Below are positions 191-7,629 of a stretch of DNA of 7,629 nt, piece by piece. Within the stretch, counting starts at the first letter, position 1; each line of letters begins with the position of its first letter. The notes beneath the pieces were generated by a model. It saw only the letters and a program-made list of their open reading frames with translations. It had not been told where the DNA came from and searched no databases. Source of the DNA: Planctomycetota bacterium (GTDB lineage: Bacteria > Planctomycetota > UBA1135 > GCA-002686595); assembly GCA_016764635.1 (NCBI GenBank), contig JAESRM010000118.1:4775-12403 (forward strand), written 5' to 3'. A program made the translations under genes and the position numbers.

Positions 191-622
191 ATGCAGGGAA
201 TGCTGACCATCGGGCAACTCGCCAAGGAAGCGGGAGTGCCAATCTCTACCGTGCGCTACTACGAAGGCCAAAAGCTCCTCGACCCGGAAAAGCGAACGGC
301 TTCGAGATACCGACTCTACGGGCCTACTGCCCTCCACAGACTTCGATTCATCCGAGCTGCTCAGGCGAGTGGATTCACCCTCAAGGACACTTCGAAGTTG
401 CTCGAGCTTCGCGACGGCAACGCGGACCCCTGCGGTGAAGTCCAAGAGCTCGTGGGCACTCGGCTGGAGGCCATCGAGGCCGACTTGGTTCGCCTGAAGC
501 GTGTTCGCCGCGTTCTTCGCGAGACGCTTACTTGGTGTCAGAAGCCGCGTGCTAAGGGGTGCTGCGAAGCCGTGGCTCGGCTCGATGAGCAAGCGGCCAA
601 GGCGACCCGGCGCAAGCGCTGA
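191..622 (+). CDS. merR: MerR-family mercury-type transcriptional regulator
   Basis: This is a 143-residue regulator, matching the roughly 144 residues of Tn21 MerR. An N-terminal winged helix-turn-helix (about residues 4-70, LTIGQLAKEAGV then TVRYYE) is followed by a long dimerisation helix (about 83-113) and a metal-binding C-terminus. Cysteines C81, C116 and C125 have spacings of 35 and 9 residues. These are identical to the C82/C117/C126 mercury ligands of Tn21 MerR, with an extra C124. It probably senses Hg(II) and twists the promoters of the genes that follow in the same orientation. The start is uncertain: ATG 191 or ATG 200 (MLTIG). No good ribosome binding site precedes either, so the message may be nearly leaderless. 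The stop is an ordinary TGA. The family call is firm. The exact metal is inferred from the cysteines and from merTP downstream. Confidence 0.93.
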   Translation: MQGMLTIGQLAKEAGVPISTVRYYEGQKLLDPEKRTASRYRLYGPTALHRLRFIRAAQASGFTLKDTSKLLELRDGNADPCGEVQELVGTRLEAIEADLVRLKRVRRVLRETLTWCQKPRAKGCCEAVARLDEQAAKATRRKR

Positions 623-751: not shown

Positions 752-2509
752 ATGAAACACTTACTTCCACTGACACTCCTGCTACTCGGAGCTTCCGTTA
801 CGTCGCCCTCTTGGGCGTTCGACTTGGATGAGTCTTCTGCGGCTCAATCTCCAGACGAAGAGACGCGCATCGTCACACTCGACATCACCGGCATGACATG
901 ACCTGCTGGCTGACCCCCGCAAGTGCGTAACGCACTTGAGTCCTTGCCGTGGGCAAGGAAAGCCACTGTCGATTACCCGAGTAAGCAAGCGACTGTCACT
1001 GCCGTATCAAAGAACTACGACGAGACGGAGCTCCTCAAAGCCCTCAAGGACGCCGGATTTGGCGGAGCCGTCGTATCTACTGATAGCAAGAAGAAGTCTA
1101 GCGACGATGAGCCCGCAGCCAAGCCCCCGGAAGGCCCGCGCGTTGCCTTCCACGTCACTGGGATGAAGAAGACAAAATCCGGGGCGACATGAGTGGGGTG
1201 ACCTAACAAGGTCACCGAGTCCCTGGAAGGGACTCACTCAACACTGAACATCTCCTGGGACTACAGCACAGATGTGGTCACCATCACCTATGACGACAAG
1301 AAGACAAGTCCTGAGAAGCTAGCGGCCATCATCGCGGCGCTCGAGTACGGCGTGAAGGAAGTGCCCGTGGTGAAAGCCGAAAGCAACAAAGGCTTCACTC
1401 CCTTCCCGGCTCCCCTGCCCGATGACGCACCCAAGGCGTTCGCTGATTCCTTCAAGGCGGCGCGAGCAGCGGGCAAGCCTATCATTATCGACTTCTGGGC
1501 CACATGGTGCGCCCCATGCGTCCAGCTCAAGAAGAAGACGCTGGAAGACCCCGAGGTCGTCAAGCAGCTTGAGGGTATCGAGGTCATTTACGTCAACCTC
1601 GATGAGCATCCCGAGCTTGCCAAGGCCTACGGCGTCAGCTCGATTCCGGATGTGTTCTTCATCAACGCTCAAGGCAAGGTCGTCGACCGGCTCAAGGCAT
1701 TCGAGGAACCCAAGCCGTTCCTCGAGCGCGTGAAGAAGATGGTGGGTAAAACGGAGAAAACCGCAACTCTTGGCATCGATACCGCAGTACCCTCCGATGA
1801 AACCGCTTCCGCCGTCGGGCTCACCAACAAGGTGCGTGTTCTCGGCAGACTCGTCACTAAGGTCGAACCGGAAAGCGCGGCAGCCAAGGCGGGACTCAAA
1901 GTCGACGATGTCATCCTGCGACTCGGGAGCAATGACCTCTACAGCGCAGACGACATTGCAGACTTTCTGAGTGTCTCGAAACCAGGGGACCAAGTGCCGC
2001 TCGTGTTCAAACGGTCCGGCAGCTCCGAGGAGTACGAAGCCACCGCGACACTGGGCGAGGTTGAAGTTGCCGCTGTTCCGGGCTCCCGCCTGGTGTGGCA
2101 GTATTCGAGCCTGGGCCAACTCCCCGGAGCGCTCGAGCAGGCGCGCGCCGAGAAGAAGAAGGTGCTCGTCGGTCTCTCCGGAGCCGAAACCTGATGACCC
2201 ACTACCCGCTTCGAGAGTGGTGCACTCTCGACCACACTAAATGATCCGGAAGTGGTTCGGGCGAGCGAGGGGGTTGTGCGAGTCATCATCCGACGACCCC
2301 ACGCGTACTTCTTCCTTAGCGAACAGTTCAAGGACCAAGGAGGCGTTGCCTCCGGGACTCCTCAAGGCTGTGTCCTTGGTGACGGCACGCCCGTCCCCAT
2401 TCCCGGGGTCTACATTCTGAACGCAACCGGGAAAGTCGAGGCAAGCGTAGCGCTTGCTGGAAAAGACGCACGCCGAGAACTCCTCAAGGCCCTGGGAGCC
2501 AAGCAGTAG
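752..2509 (+). CDS. Periplasmic six-selenocysteine protein: HMA-HMA-thioredoxin-PDZ-thioredoxin
   Basis: One 585-codon frame, read through six in-frame TGA codons as selenocysteine (U), ends at TAG 2507. Signal peptide at 1-22 (MKHLLPLTLLLLG, cleavage near SWA). HMA domain 1 at about 40-108 has U50 and U54 in GMT-U-PAG-U-P. An acidic/lysine linker covers 109-128. HMA domain 2 at about 130-205 has U147 and U150 in AT-U-VG-U-P. Thioredoxin domain 1 at about 215-332 has WC253APC256 and cis-Pro299. PDZ domain at about 340-440. Thioredoxin-like domain 2 at about 455-585 has U481-U482 in ET-UU-P, a PIPGVYIL cis-Pro-like segment, and a lone C540. Five domains flow into each other across all six TGAs with no frame change. 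HMA and thioredoxin sequence resumes immediately after each pair, and hairpins follow each pair. Selenols at metal and redox sites, between merR and merTP, suggest periplasmic Hg(II) binding or redox. The ribosome binding site is weak; ATG 752 is chosen for the signal peptide. Ordinary annotation would split this into pieces around 923-1192, 1274-2194 and 2252-2509 and lose the N-terminus. Confidence 0.9.
899..913 (+). other. Recoded UGA pair 1 (Sec50, Sec54) in HMA domain 1
   Basis: TGA at 899-901 and TGA at 911-913 lie in frame. They give GMT-U-P-A-G-U-P where HMA domains carry GMTCxxC. Both TGAs are followed by C. The spacing is U-x3-U rather than the usual x2, so the metal loop is one residue longer than in MerP or CopZ. 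Confidence 0.85.
921..937 (+). promoter_or_regulatory. Candidate bacterial SECIS hairpin 1a
   Basis: A perfect 7-bp stem, AAGTGCG/CGCACTT, closes a TAA loop. If the top G-C pair opens, the loop becomes GTAAC, starting with G. The stem begins 19 bases after the first recoded TGA, within the spacing known for bacterial SECIS elements, which lie inside the coding sequence just 3' of UGA. It probably serves Sec50. Confidence 0.7.
941..959 (+). promoter_or_regulatory. Candidate bacterial SECIS hairpin 1b
   Basis: A perfect 8-bp stem, TCCTTGCC/GGCAAGGA, has a GTG loop. It begins 27 bases after the second TGA (911-913), and its loop begins about 35 bases after it. The G at the start of the loop matches the bacterial SECIS pattern. 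The same GTG loop caps the hairpin after the third TGA pair. The simplest reading is one hairpin per UGA in this pair. Confidence 0.7.
1190..1201 (+). other. Recoded UGA pair 2 (Sec147, Sec150) in HMA domain 2
   Basis: TGA at 1190-1192 and TGA at 1199-1201 lie in frame. They give AT-U-V-G-U-P, exactly the CxxC spacing. The pair sits eight residues after the GM of this HMA domain instead of two, so the loop before it is longer than usual. Confidence 0.87.
1197..1216 (+). repeat. Inverted repeat overlapping the fourth TGA
   Basis: GGTGACC (1197-1203) and GGTCACC (1210-1216) form a perfect 7-bp stem with loop TAACAA. The fourth TGA lies in the left arm, and the loop is only 11 bases from the third TGA. 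That is too close for a classical SECIS. It may be an auxiliary structure, or chance. Confidence 0.45.
1217..1235 (+). promoter_or_regulatory. Candidate bacterial SECIS hairpin 2
   Basis: GAGTCCC/GGGACTC is a perfect 7-bp stem with a TGGAA loop, so G is the second loop base. It begins 24 bases after the third TGA and 15 bases after the fourth, with the loop about 31 and 22 bases away. One hairpin could therefore serve both UGAs. It abuts the 1197-1216 repeat without a gap. Confidence 0.7.
2192..2197 (+). other. Recoded tandem UGA-UGA (Sec481-Sec482)
   Basis: Two consecutive TGA codons lie in frame, giving GAET-U-U-PTT at the place where the second thioredoxin-like domain should have its active-site Cys pair, just after the VLVGLSG strand. 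The protein continues with a thioredoxin-like pattern (LNDPEVV) that also occurs in domain 1 (LEDPEVV). Adjacent Sec residues could form a vicinal diselenide or a two-selenol metal clamp. Confidence 0.85.
2211..2231 (+). promoter_or_regulatory. Candidate bacterial SECIS hairpin 3
   Basis: A perfect 9-bp stem, TCGAGAGTG/CACTCTCGA, has a GTG loop. It begins 13 bases after the tandem TGA-TGA, with the loop 22-25 bases from the two codons. This is the longest and cleanest of the hairpins and shares its GTG loop with hairpin 1b. Confidence 0.75.
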
Positions 2510-2705: not shown

Positions 2706-3182
2706 ATGACCAAGGATATTCGATTGATGAAAGCACTCTGCCCTAAATCCAACCAGCTAGGCAAACCAGTTAAGGCGGCAACTGTCGAGCACCTGGTCCA
2801 ATCGGATCTTCGCTCGGGAGTGGCCGGTCGCGACTGGCTCTTTTGCAATTCGGCCACTTGTGACGTGGTCTACTTCAGCGAGAACGGAGCGGTGCTCCGG
2901 CGAGCTGACTTGACCGTGCGTGTCGGTATCAAAGAGGAGGAGCCTCCGCACCTAGTCTGCTACTGCTTCGACCATAGCCTTGAGAGCATCCGCGATGAGG
3001 TGGAGCGGACGGGAGCAAGCACCGTCGTGGCCTCGGTGACCGCAAAGGTCCGTGCCGGTGAGTGTAGTTGCGAGAAGCTGAACCCAAAGGGCGCTTGCTG
3101 CCTAGGAGACCTGCGCGCGGCCGTCAAGGATGTGCTCGAAGCTGGCGCGCAAGACGAAGGAACGAGCTGCTGCAAGGAATAG
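2706..3182 (+). CDS. CopZ N-terminal-like Zn and [2Fe-2S] binding protein
   Basis: This 158-residue, cysteine-rich protein resembles the N-terminal half of Archaeoglobus CopZ, which binds zinc and a [2Fe-2S] cluster. Visible ligands: C12, FC47xxxxC52DVVYF (zinc-type site), VC85YC87F, C120SC122, and NPKGAC131C132LG, the last six fitting a [2Fe-2S] site. An added CC pair (155-156) lies near the C-terminus, suited to soft metals. There is no signal peptide or membrane segment, so it should be cytosolic. It ends two bases before merTP, so the two are surely cotranscribed. In that setting it may accept or buffer Hg, or act as a redox partner, for the transporter; this is inference. Start: ATG 2706, although ATG 2727 (MKALCP) is possible. 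A GGAGG ribosome site (2686-2690) sits in a small hairpin (2686-2703) and is rather far from ATG 2706. It lacks the C-terminal HMA domain of true CopZ. Confidence 0.85.
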   Translation: MTKDIRLMKALCPKSNQLGKPVKAATVEHLVQSDLRSGVAGRDWLFCNSATCDVVYFSENGAVLRRADLTVRVGIKEEEPPHLVCYCFDHSLESIRDEVERTGASTVVASVTAKVRAGECSCEKLNPKGACCLGDLRAAVKDVLEAGAQDEGTSCCKE

Positions 3183-3184
3183 CC

Positions 3185-3829
3185 ATGGGCACTGAAACAA
3201 ACGACCGCCGAGGCCTCTGGGCCGCCGTTGGTTCCGTCATCGCTGCGGTGGTGGCTTCGGCTTGCTGCTGGCTCCCACTCCTGCTCATCGCCTTCGGAGC
3301 TTCTGCTGCTGGCGTCTCGGCCACCTTCGAGAGGTACAGGCCCCTGATGCTCGGTGTGACGGCAGTTCTGCTCGGCGCAGGGTTCTACCTAGTGTATTTC
3401 CGCAAGGAGACCTGCGCCCCGGGTGAAGCGTGTGCGGTACCCAACCCAAGGCTTCAGCGCTTGAACCGTACGATGCTTTGGGTGGCCACGGCGGCCGTCG
3501 TGGTCTTCGCACTATTCCCGAAATACGCGGGGCTGTTCGTCGACGACGCATCGAGCCTCCCCGCTGGCGAAAGCAATGCACCCACCGTCCTACTTGAAAT
3601 CCAAGGAATGACCTGTGAGGCCTGCGCTTTGCATATTCAGAAGGAACTCGACACTGTGCCCGGAGTGATCGGCTCATCCGTCAACTACGACGAGAAGAGC
3701 GCAACGGTGATGACCGACGCTGCCGCGCCCCCTTCACATGAAGCTCTGATCGAAGCCGTACAGTCCGCGGGATACTCGGCGCGTCGAGCGGTGAAGCAAC
3801 CCAGGATGAATCTGATCGAAGATCAGTGA
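3185..3829 (+). CDS. merTP: MerTP: mercuric ion transporter MerT fused to a MerP-like HMA domain
   Basis: This 214-residue inner-membrane protein carries Hg(II) into the cytoplasm. The MerT part (about 1-120) has three predicted membrane segments (about 12-36, 53-72, 97-118). Its vicinal pair C27-C28 lies in SACCWLPLLL of segment 1, and a second pair, C77 and C83, lies in CAPGEAC of the cytoplasmic loop, as in Tn21 MerT (C24/C25 and C76/C82). A linker leads to an HMA domain (about 133-204) with GMTC144EAC147, equivalent to periplasmic MerP. With three segments the C-terminus should face the periplasm. ATG 3185 is chosen for its AAGGA ribosome site (3174-3178) and the two-base gap from the upstream gene. 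All metal sites here use Cys, in contrast to the upstream selenoprotein. It ends in an ordinary TGA. No merA follows. Confidence 0.93.
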   Translation: MGTETNDRRGLWAAVGSVIAAVVASACCWLPLLLIAFGASAAGVSATFERYRPLMLGVTAVLLGAGFYLVYFRKETCAPGEACAVPNPRLQRLNRTMLWVATAAVVVFALFPKYAGLFVDDASSLPAGESNAPTVLLEIQGMTCEACALHIQKELDTVPGVIGSSVNYDEKSATVMTDAAAPPSHEALIEAVQSAGYSARRAVKQPRMNLIEDQ

Positions 3830-5110: not shown

Positions 5111-5629
5111 CTACTTCGAGTCCGGCGCGGCGGCCAGTCCTTGTTCAATCTCGCCTTGCTGAATCGACCGACCAGGCGATGCGATGCCCATTCGCGCAAG
5201 CGCCTCAACTTGATGCCACCGCCGGCCGAGTACCGAGGTGCACCGCGCGTAGGATGCTCGCATTGCATCGGTCACTTCTTGTGGGCTCCAGTCAGGCTCT
5301 GCGAGAGTGAGGCGTTCTACCGCACGACGGTAATCGTCGCGTTCATCGTATTCGTCGTCGAGGTCGGTCTCGCAGAGAACCACATCCACATCCTCCAGAT
5401 CGGGGCACTGGTCGTGGCCCAGGTACATCGCCTCTGCGGCGGGCCCGCCCATCATGGTGTCGAGCGCAATCTCGTAATCGAAGACTGGCCCTCCGCTCGG
5501 AACGGTCTCGCCCGTTCCGTCCTCAAGAACCTGAAAGCACACCACGACATTCTCGTGATGGTCAAACATCACGATGTGGCCCGCTTCATGAATCGCACCG
5601 GCCATCAATACAGGATCGAAAAGGCGCAT
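5111..5629 (-). CDS. Stand-alone M41-like HEAGH zinc metalloprotease
   Basis: This is a 172-residue protein. AIH14EAGH18IV is the HExxH zinc-binding motif in the HEAGH form used by FtsH (peptidase family M41), and GGPAAEAMYLG (61-71) matches the conserved GGRAAE segment of that family. A third ligand could be an Asp in the acidic DERDDYRRAVERL region, where FtsH has its ligand Asp. It lacks the AAA ATPase and membrane parts of FtsH, so it is a soluble stand-alone protease. Similar small HEAGH proteins occur in accessory regions. ATG 5629 lacks a clear ribosome site. A GTG at 5719 with a good GGGGAGG site reads into this frame but crosses one TGA (5683-5681). The substrate is unknown; a defence role is inferred from its neighbours. 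Confidence 0.7.
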   Translation of the reverse strand: MRLFDPVLMAGAIHEAGHIVMFDHHENVVVCFQVLEDGTGETVPSGGPVFDYEIALDTMMGGPAAEAMYLGHDQCPDLEDVDVVLCETDLDDEYDERDDYRRAVERLTLAEPDWSPQEVTDAMRASYARCTSVLGRRWHQVEALARMGIASPGRSIQQGEIEQGLAAAPDSK

Positions 5630-5803: not shown

Positions 5804-6868
5804 TCACCCCGCAACCGGGTCCCGTCCAATGACTCGCAAGTAGCCCTCTTCTGTCCATAGCTCCTCGAGGAGCCTCGCAACCCACGCTTTCGTGTAGACG
5901 TAGTCACGGTGCACCGCGTCGAACGAGCAGTATTCCGCAGTAGTGGCTTCGGGCTTGGTAGCCCCCTCTGCAGGCCGAATGCCGAATTTCTTCCTGGCTC
6001 GTGTGTGGGTATCCATCGTAAACCTGAAGGGAAGCTTCGCATTCACTTCCTCCACAACCTGACTTGGCTTCAAGCGATCAAGGTTCGCAATAGGGATGTG
6101 CTTTTCCTTGATGAGGACGTTAAGCCGTTCAAGCCGCTGCAGTTCCTCTTCGCTTGCTTCGTCGATCGTGACGAATTGGACCGCAGCATCTGCAGCCTTC
6201 TCTCGATTGACAACACGCGGAACGAGGTAGACGCTGAAGGAGTACTTCATGCTATTGAGCGTCGACGACGGCAATCCCGCACGGAACACCTCGACGTAAT
6301 CACGAACACTTGAGACAGCGGCAGTTGCCATCGCCCTGGCTGCCTTCTTTCGCTCTTCAGGCATTACCTGCGAGAACTGGAGGGCAAGGGCGAGTTCATC
6401 CATCAATGCGTATCGGCGTCCAAACTCCGCCACGAGCATCTCCTCGAGATTCATGAGTGCGGCCTGGCACTCGCCGTAGAGAGAGCAATCGAGATCTGGA
6501 AGGTGCCGGTGCTCGATCTTGTTGCGCAGGCCAATCAGGAATTCCAGGTTCTTCCGAATCGGAGGATTGTCCGAGCCCCAGTACTGCTTGGCGCACTCCG
6601 CAACGTCCCAATGCTTCGGTTCCCCATCAACCTTCAAATAGCGCACACGTCGGCCCGTTCCGGACTGACGAGAGCGGTGCCAGGGCTTCTTCCGCTTTGA
6701 ATAGAAATACGCATGAAAGAACCCGCCCCATGCGATCACGATCATCACGAGGTAATGCGCTGTCCGAAACTTGCGGCCTGGTCGGTTGTAGAACTCAACT
6801 GCCGCAACGGCTGCCGACCGGCACTTCTCGAGGTTGTCTCTTACGTCGAATGACTGCTTTCCACTCAT
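5804..6868 (-). CDS. DUF3644 family protein with HEPN-like RX4H motif
   Basis: This 354-residue protein has DUF3644 features: FYNRPGRKFRTAHYLVMIVIAW (about 26-47, interrupted here for brevity by position), KVDGEPKHWD, and NLEFLIGLR115NKIEH120R. The last fits the Rx4-6H motif of HEPN RNases, the toxins of many abortive-infection systems. A helical C-terminal region (about 150-340) has no motif I recognise. ATG 6868 is chosen because GGAGG precedes it by four bases (GGAGGCGAGATG); the frame is open 72 codons further upstream, but that part looks non-coding. The protein is full length for the family. It is first in a minus-strand series with the metalloprotease and SAVED fragment. RNase activity is inferred from the motif, not shown. 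Confidence 0.78.
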   Translation of the reverse strand: MSGKQSFDVRDNLEKCRSAAVAAVEFYNRPGRKFRTAHYLVMIVIAWGGFFHAYFYSKRKKPWHRSRQSGTGRRVRYLKVDGEPKHWDVAECAKQYWGSDNPPIRKNLEFLIGLRNKIEHRHLPDLDCSLYGECQAALMNLEEMLVAEFGRRYALMDELALALQFSQVMPEERKKAARAMATAAVSSVRDYVEVFRAGLPSSTLNSMKYSFSVYLVPRVVNREKAADAAVQFVTIDEASEEELQRLERLNVLIKEKHIPIANLDRLKPSQVVEEVNAKLPFRFTMDTHTRARKKFGIRPAEGATKPEATTAEYCSFDAVHRDYVYTKAWVARLLEELWTEEGYLRVIGRDPVAG

Positions 6869-7301: not shown

Positions 7302-7325
7302 ATGACTGAGGAGGAACCACGATGA
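7302..7325 (+). other. Possible 7-codon leader ORF overlapping parA start
   Basis: AAGGAG (7294-7299) is followed by ATG 7302, reading MTEEEPR and then TGA. The stop overlaps the parA start as ATGA (7322-7325). The same bases also contain parA's own GAGGAGG ribosome site. It could couple translation, or be a by-product of a purine-rich leader. Confidence 0.2.
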
Positions 7326-7629
7326 CTATCTATGCCTACTTCAACCAAAAGGGGGGAGTCGGGAAGACGACCCTGGCCGTCCATCATGCGGCACATCTCT
7401 ACAGATCCGGGTCACACCCACTCCTCTTGGACACGGACAGGCAACGCCACTCCAGTGGCTGGCTGAACGCATCGGGGCTGGCTGTCGACACCAAGTACGT
7501 TTCCCCGAAAGACCTAGCAGATCGGATACTGCGAACGGCCCGGACTCAAGGCCGACATGTCCTGAGCGACGAGATTGATTCCCACGGAGACATCATCATC
7601 GATGCTCCTGGCGAACTCGATGTCGCTAA
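7322..7629 (+). CDS. parA: ParA/MinD-type ATPase, 3' end beyond the window
   Basis: The first 102 codons of a ParA-family P-loop ATPase are present; the frame is still open at the window end, so the gene is partial. FNQKGGVGKTT (7-17) is the deviant Walker A motif with its signature lysine. LLLDTDRQ (34-41) is the Walker A' segment, and DIIIDAPG near the end is Walker B. The start has a strong GAGGAGG ribosome site about seven bases upstream. ParA proteins segregate plasmids, chromosomes or integrative elements, so this may mark a mobile element, but no partner parB or parS is visible. Confidence 0.9.
   Translation, partial: MTIYAYFNQKGGVGKTTLAVHHAAHLYRSGSHPLLLDTDRQRHSSGWLNASGLAVDTKYVSPKDLADRILRTARTQGRHVLSDEIDSHGDIIIDAPGELDVA

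Follow-up and report, generated by a model that had tools for sequence, protein, structure and literature searches.

A 2026 survey of prokaryotic selenoproteins recognises 119 families—the vast majority with a single selenocysteine (Sec, U), a few with two or three—which include UxxU metal-binding proteins, MerT, CopZ and Trx7/PDZ selenoproteins; it also speaks of 'multiple' Sec residues in some archaeal FrhD/VhuD proteins, for which its table gives 2 (PMC13188914). No family with more than three Sec residues is found in that table, and vicinal Sec-Sec is absent from its Table 1. Sec has already been predicted in mercury-transport proteins, both in this survey, where the tabulated mercuric transport protein has one Sec and no fusion to a thioredoxin (Trx) or Sec-Sec domain is listed, and in the GOS survey, which counts MerP among the selenoproteins together with a putative mercuric transport protein (PMC2398784); the presence of Sec in proteins of the mer type is therefore known in kind. 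Here we describe a gene at positions 752–2509 of a 7,629-nucleotide stretch of DNA from an uncultured member of the Planctomycetota (GenBank assembly GCA_016764635.1, contig JAESRM010000118.1, positions 4,775–12,403 of the forward strand; the whole stretch is 'the window' below) that almost certainly encodes a protein with six Sec residues, predicted to lie in two HMA domains and, as an adjacent pair, in a C-terminal thioredoxin-like domain (the 'UU' domain).

Scored against NCBIfam, the six-Sec protein (P0001) falls under the cut-off for all 25 of the best matches shown. With NF041115, a UxxU metal-binding (seleno)protein with 2 Sec ('putative mercuric reductase'), it shares the HMA fold and the replacement of both ligand Cys residues by Sec; NF041115 is, however, a 74-position single domain (55.1 bits against a cut-off of 95), whereas the protein described here joins two such HMA domains, one of them UxxxU, with a Trx, a PDZ and a UU domain. 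NF041199, the Trx7/PDZ (seleno)protein (CxxU, 1 Sec), likewise joins PDZ and thioredoxin-like domains in one selenoprotein, but only the PDZ part aligns (residues 355–428; 42.6 bits against 300) and CxxU stands in place of a vicinal UU. Scores for MerP (TIGR02052; 55.7 bits against 92.55) and for TsoB (NF045694; 72.2 bits against 805, thioredoxin part only) also lie under their cut-offs. NF045683, by name a MerT/CopZ fusion-like selenoprotein and hence of the MerT type, is the best match of the neighbouring MerT-HMA gene (108.4 bits of 375, under cut-off); that neighbour, in contrast, has Cys only, Sec being found in the separate six-Sec protein. The SAO (Sec-assisted organometallic) and Tso operons also concentrate Sec in one operon—SAO for organometallics—but distribute it over six and three selenoprotein genes, whereas here six Sec residues sit in one polypeptide with MerR-family, CopZ and MerT neighbours (PMC13188914). 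Many Sec residues in one secreted protein are otherwise a feature of eukaryotic Selenoprotein P, which has 10 (PMC8266573). The UU domain is 15–19% identical to the C-terminal domain of DsbD and to DsbH, and differs in its vicinal Sec-Sec pair. Those two proteins carry a CxxC motif; Selenoprotein P, for its part, relies on eukaryotic decoding with the selenocysteine insertion sequence (SECIS) in the 3′ untranslated region, and has no HMA, Trx-PDZ-UU or mer context. As far as our searches show, what is new here is the combination of six Sec residues in one bacterial chain, a vicinal-Sec thioredoxin-fold family and the fusions that join them to other modules; no described six-Sec bacterial protein was found in the literature searched, which left subscription papers mostly outside, and the product is predicted to hold the most Sec residues of any catalogued bacterial protein.

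The reading frame and its six UGA codons

The gene is a single frame of 585 codons on the forward strand, running from ATG at 752 to TAG at 2509, with no internal TAA or TAG and six TGA; from the frame's own composition by codon position, about 3.6, 6.0 and 2.0, respectively, would be expected. Conventional gene calling breaks this frame into pieces. Working from the N-terminus, a signal peptide (residues ~1–22, a by-eye reading only) is followed by HMA1 (~38–108) and HMA2 (~130–204), both recognised by Pfam as stretches of PF00403 (E 3.6e-18), then by Trx1 (229–330) with an ordinary CAPC motif (PF13899 over 229–305), a PDZ domain (~357–430; PF17820 over 368–421) and finally the UU domain (~440–585). 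The latter has no Pfam match at E ≤ 0.01, and its predicted structure is thioredoxin-like (pLDDT 86.3), similar to solved thioredoxin-fold proteins and resembling DsbD-gamma and DsbH. An hhalign comparison of Trx1 with the UU domain was set aside, as the database rows contain both parts and the overlap is trivial.

The first two UGA codons fall in HMA1, Sec50 (899–901) at the first ligand position and Sec54 (911–913) completing a UxxxU motif; the next two, Sec147 (1190–1192) and Sec150 (1199–1201), form the UxxU of HMA2; and the last two are the tandem UGA-UGA at 2192–2197 (2192–2194 and 2195–2197), giving Sec481-Sec482 in the last thioredoxin-like domain. The first-pass annotation of this DNA, which had proposed six TGA codons in one frame together with a signal peptide, two HMA, two thioredoxin-like and one PDZ domain, is borne out in both respects. 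Its further claim that every UGA falls exactly at a Cys position of these folds stands for U50, U147 and U150, which match the HMA CxxC; U54 lies one residue further on (UxxxU, not UxxU), the U481-U482 pair is vicinal where thioredoxin has CxxC, and of the thioredoxin-like domains only the second has any Sec.

Each of the six UGA codons is followed by a hairpin that satisfies the published bSECIS rule (a loop of 3–9 nt with G in its first two positions, 16–37 nt from the UGA, and a minimum free energy ≤ −7.5; PMC13188914), with energies of −8.6 to −12.2 kcal/mol and loops 22–35 nt downstream. All lie on the forward strand. Hairpin A (920–938) has its loop 25 nt 3′ of UGA50 and hairpin B (941–959) 35 nt 3′ of UGA54; hairpin C (1217–1235) is probably common to UGA147 (loop at 32 nt) and UGA150 (23 nt), and hairpin D (2211–2231) probably common to both tandem UGAs (25 and 22 nt). 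A further hairpin, C0 (1197–1216), has its loop only ~12 nt from UGA147 and is probably not a SECIS. As a control we made 300 synonymous codon shuffles, keeping protein and codon usage: an equally good hairpin arose in 3, 2, 3 and 0 of these for A, B, C and D, and no shuffle reached the summed energy of −68.4 kcal/mol over the six UGAs (best −45.5). Equally good hairpins follow 34, 15, 8, 8, 0 and 0 of 560 other in-frame codons, taking the six UGAs in order. Among 14 other genes treated in the same manner, the observed sum was reached by no shuffle in six (G059, G042, G026, G023hma, G010 and G004) and by 1 to 6 shuffles in five (G000b, G020, G023pdz, G035 and G013). Plain RNA folding gives z-scores of −1.87, −4.24 and −3.09 for the three UGA regions; a search of the window with Rfam returned nothing above gathering score.

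Hairpins C and D also covary. For hairpin C, across 18 sequences, 96.0% of 126 cells are paired and four of seven pairs have changed on both sides, the covariation score being reached in 0 of 500 shuffles; for hairpin D the signal is weaker (13 sequences, 94.0% of 117 cells paired, two-sided changes in two of nine pairs), its covariation score again being reached in 0 of 500. A paralogue encoded in the same genome (C194; L126:3690–4703, reverse strand) is a natural control for hairpin C: it has Sec in HMA1 only, lacks both HMA2 UGAs and an intact hairpin there, and keeps just four of the seven pairs.

Codons downstream of the UGAs are under purifying selection, post-UGA segments being about as constrained as those before. 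The ratio dN/dS lies between 0.16 and 0.70 in 24 of 25 pairwise segments, the other being saturated; it is 0.16–0.29 against the same-genome paralogue and, against G026, 0.22 before and 0.27 after the UU pair, values that are rough because dS is mostly above 1.

Protein databases hold the UU family largely in truncated form. Among 74 matches (~8000 candidates were scored per search), 63 belong to the family (P0005–P0067, of which P0009 is the window's own piece); 61 of these end at GAET or GAES, the residue preceding the UU columns, so that present annotation largely hides the family, and the other two, both JGI calls, carry W-W at the UU columns. For the remaining 11, which are PDZ proteins, no alignment exceeds 51% of the query. 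A second search, with 120 of its 130 matches listed, brought the W-W calls to three with P0079 and yielded a single, distant Cys-Cys relative (P0080, GSDTCCAFSRFE), so that Cys forms at the UU columns number at least one; across P0005–P0170 as a whole, 78 entries stop at this position, 4 continue through it, and the other 84 were classed together as pieces lying past it or as different PDZ proteins. Most simply, the W-W calls (P0005, P0010 and P0079, all from JGI) would be selenoproteins mislabelled by a gene caller that set UGA to Trp. In translated genomic loci, L176 has Cys-Sec at the UU columns, and L136, L139 and L140 are small single-HMA proteins with UxxxC, two of which have a GCAGUCUGC hairpin loop resembling the SECIS of E. 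coli fdhF. Cys or Sec thus occupies the homologous columns for the UU pair (Cys-Cys in P0080, Cys-Sec in L176) and for the HMA pairs (UxxxC), as the first-pass annotation had proposed to check; the exception is HMA2 of the same-genome paralogue, which has neither (STPASE). Elsewhere, two HMA-Trx proteins (L208, ~5205–5528 in G349; L209, ~2286–2615 in G216) have, in addition to UxxC and UxxU, an extra UGA close to where the thioredoxin cis-Pro loop is expected ('IPDTUILGPDG'). A second UU family in which no PDZ domain was detected (L170–L174, in five genomes of the phylum sample described below) has 'LSGSDTUUAFLRFEGG' or similar, followed by uncharacterised sequence.

The presence of Sec machinery, on which the first-pass annotation had made its proposal depend, is established in part. 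The host genome (G000) is a metagenome-assembled genome (MAG), 64.09% complete. In it SelB is represented by a C-terminal part (L003, 453 residues) truncated at a contig edge, whose best family is selB (profile positions 180–580; 107.9 bits, where the cut-off for the full length is 242.25); the top-scoring 'SelB' match, L001, is EF-Tu and was set aside in favour of L003. Neither SelA nor tRNA-Sec was found over cut-off in this incomplete MAG, where, of nine tRNA-Sec-like places, the eight with a locus are ordinary tRNAs. Over the 61 genomes searched (the host and 60 relatives), SelA is found in 57, including all 28 with ≥90% completeness and ≤5% contamination, and tRNA-Sec over gathering score in 58; both are present in the genus-mates G001 and G002 (the SelA of G002 in two pieces), and G003 has tRNA-Sec only.

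Module fusions and genomic neighbourhood

In a phylum sample of 392 genomes, host included, a PDZ-UU profile finds 15 matches in 13 genomes (E ≤ 1e-15), 14 with two TGA and one with a single TGA (Cys-Sec), and an HMA-HMA-Trx profile finds 17 in 15 genomes (E ≤ 1e-25), each with two to four TGA. Within the host's order, 13 of 154 genomes have a whole-protein match at E ≤ 1e-30. As most sampled genomes lack it, the family is patchy. In the 61-genome search all 61 matched, most via thioredoxin domains only, and we followed those rows with an in-frame TGA. Two other searches could not tell relatives apart from ordinary thioredoxins and were not used: a full-protein database search (two matches of DsbD/thioredoxin type, over 17–18% of the query) and a scan of genome contigs, whose 80 retained loci all fall within residues 183–361, around Trx1.

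The same six-Sec fusion is likely present in G451, a genome of the same family and another genus: residues 1–421 (4 TGA, 62% identical) lie at one contig end and residues 447–584 (2 TGA, 69% identical) at another, and the database protein P0033, by eye near-identical to the G451 sequence, bridges the two. In other genomes the modules are encoded by separate, neighbouring genes (G252, G474, G172 and G202), or are fused in reverse order as PDZ-UU-HMA-Trx (G026, with five Sec; G213, with four). Such repeated fusion argues that these modules work together. G468 has CopZ-MerT-HMA-HMA(UxxU)-Trx in a single frame, and in G061 the ligand site in the HMA domain of a MerT-HMA protein includes an in-frame UGA.

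In the window, the six-Sec gene lies downstream of a MerR-family regulator (191–622, forward strand; 143 aa, with Cys 81, 116, 124 and 125; stop codon TGA), and is followed by a CopZ-type iron-sulfur metallochaperone (2706–3182, forward; 158 aa, zf_CopZ; NF047645, 128.7 bits over a cut-off of 100) and by MerT, a mercuric transporter, here joined to an HMA domain with the motif MTCEAC (3185–3829, forward; 214 aa; stop codon TGA). The latter scores 59.8 bits for PF02411, over its cut-off of 32.9, and 105.4 for MerTP (NF033556), under 180. The regulator belongs to the MerR superfamily only, its score for the mercury-specific MerR (TIGR02051, 97.4 bits) being under the cut-off of 150.85 and about equal to that for the Zn-responsive regulator (NF007069, 99.8 bits); for this reason we call the cluster mer-like. 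The placing of its Cys residues at 81, 116 and 124/125 is closer to that of the MerR/ZntR regulators of divalent metals than to that of CueR.

Two operator-like stretches on the forward strand, one before merR (150–179) and one before copZ (2645–2670), are candidate MerR sites: each holds the 10-mer GGTTCATGGT, at 170 and at 2660, within what by eye is a weak dyad. Patterns resembling these sites were not found in the seven related loci searched.

Of 31 loci selected from among our matches, an HMA(Sec)-Trx gene is found in 21; in seven of these, the window included, MerR-family, CopZ and MerT genes are present as well. In G059 the homologue has merA directly upstream (504.2 bits, over 454.45). 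Further along the window, a reverse-strand gene at 5804–6868 encodes a DUF3644 protein matching the PADLOC candidate defence family PDC-S19 (E 5.1e-122), and a partial ParA-type gene occupies 7322–7627; together these may mark a stretch of mobile or defence character next to the mer-like genes.

A putative self-reducing metal trap

The first-pass annotation had viewed the product as a multi-Sec protein of metal binding and redox function, a view that is supported here. Given the MerT, merA and CopZ neighbours and fusions, the best reading of the gene is as a periplasmic chaperone that binds through Sec, has thioredoxin domains of its own and handles mercury or some other soft, divalent metal, copper and others being possible; metal binding is suggested by the HMA domains together with the mer-type neighbours, and specificity for mercury is presumed. 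We consider it likely that the secreted protein captures mercury or a soft metal on its Sec-bearing HMA domains, is itself reduced by its thioredoxin-like domains and passes the metal to MerT.

In such a scheme SelB would insert Sec at the UGAs with the help of hairpins A–D, two of which would serve two UGAs each—a step to which hairpin position, covariation and the shuffle control all point—and the signal peptide would direct export to the periplasm (several relatives start, by eye, with a lipobox-like sequence). The UxxxU and UxxU pairs would act as metal ligands in the manner of the Cys pairs of MerP and CopZ, as homology suggests, and would bind metal more tightly, as Hg-Se chemistry leads one to expect. 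In an oxidising periplasm such pairs would be prone to close as diselenides, which the attached thioredoxin-like domains could reopen: Trx1 (CAPC) and the Sec-Sec domain may reduce diselenide or selenosulfide bonds so as to keep the ligands open, or may release the metal, this being the least certain step. The part played by the UU domain is similarly the least certain of the assignments; it may be a reductase, a second trap, or a relay for electrons from a DsbD-type partner. Finally, on the strength of the conserved neighbours and the natural fusion, metal would pass to MerT-HMA and, within the cytosol, to the CopZ-type chaperone, MerA taking part where present.

Should the UGAs not encode Sec at all, they could be genuine stops or sequencing errors, with 752–2509 a pseudogene or several short genes, as its fragmentation by standard gene calling might suggest; however, the purifying selection acting after the UGAs and the covarying hairpins speak against this, and UGAs at matching places in separate genomes make sequencing error very unlikely, so that we regard the idea as highly improbable. 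Still more improbable, in our judgement, is a reassignment of UGA to Trp. The three database proteins with W-W at the UU columns would fit, but TGA ends merR, merT and selB in the host, from which it follows that UGA is not reassigned throughout the genome, P0080 and L176 have Cys rather than Trp at these columns, and the UGAs have SECIS-type hairpins.

If the Sec residues are real, the metal may yet be other than mercury. HMA domains bind several soft metals, the adjacent chaperone is of CopZ type over its NCBIfam cut-off, and the regulator is as close to a Zn-responsive protein as to MerR and over neither cut-off, all of which would suit periplasmic handling of copper(I), cadmium, lead, zinc or silver. 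MerT nonetheless recurs both as neighbour and as fusion partner, merA adjoins one homologue, and the Cys pattern of the regulator is more MerR/ZntR-like than CueR-like; we hold a non-mercury role to be a serious though clearly less likely possibility. Less likely again, and in our opinion doubtful, is a protein mainly devoted to periplasmic redox or selenium handling, whether as a DsbD-like relay or as a selenium store, in which the HMA domains would not serve detoxification. Two thioredoxin-like domains, the resemblance of the UU domain to DsbD-gamma and DsbH, and a store-like six Sec per chain are compatible with it, but the HMA domains have Sec exactly where metal ligands are placed, genes of mer type recur nearby, and some relatives consist of a lone HMA domain with UxxxC.

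Several observations count against capture of mercury by a Sec-containing protein as we propose it, and bear on the two halves of the proposal. As to decoding, SelA and tRNA-Sec are those components that went undetected over cut-off in the 64%-complete host MAG, and SelD, for which the host only was searched, gives a weak match (41.2 bits against 125). Hairpins A and B are less exceptional than the others (34 and 15 of 560 codons do as well), their region has the z-score of only −1.87, with 11 of 200 shuffles folding equally well, and in G020 hairpin B is poor, 94 of 300 shuffles equalling it. Among the 14 other genes, as-good shuffles number 17, 35 and 109 of 300 in G030, G003 and G012, and the further pair types of hairpin D are matched by 442 of 500 shuffles. 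As to function, the regulator passes no equivalog cut-off, which leaves room for a different divalent metal; the adjacent CopZ-type gene would suit copper; 14 of the 21 HMA-Trx loci are without the full MerR-CopZ-MerT set in the available sequence, some being cut by contig ends; one HMA domain of the same-genome paralogue, HMA2, is without ligand residues; and no mercuric reductase was found over cut-off in the incomplete host MAG, the MerA-like match there being lipoamide dehydrogenase.

Taken at its widest, the proposal is of a selenium branch of mercury or soft-metal handling in the Planctomycetota—a self-reducing, six-Sec periplasmic trap that includes a conserved Sec-Sec thioredoxin-fold family with one SECIS per UGA-UGA—which we think is probably correct, if by a slender balance. 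If true, it would double the largest Sec count (three) in the table of the 2026 survey (PMC13188914), and would offer a natural test both of how a ribosome gets past six UGAs, including an adjacent pair, on the same message and of a single hairpin serving two UGAs. It would also suggest a reason why cells pay for selenium: the affinity of mercury for selenium would serve as a tool of detoxification, with the reductase built in.

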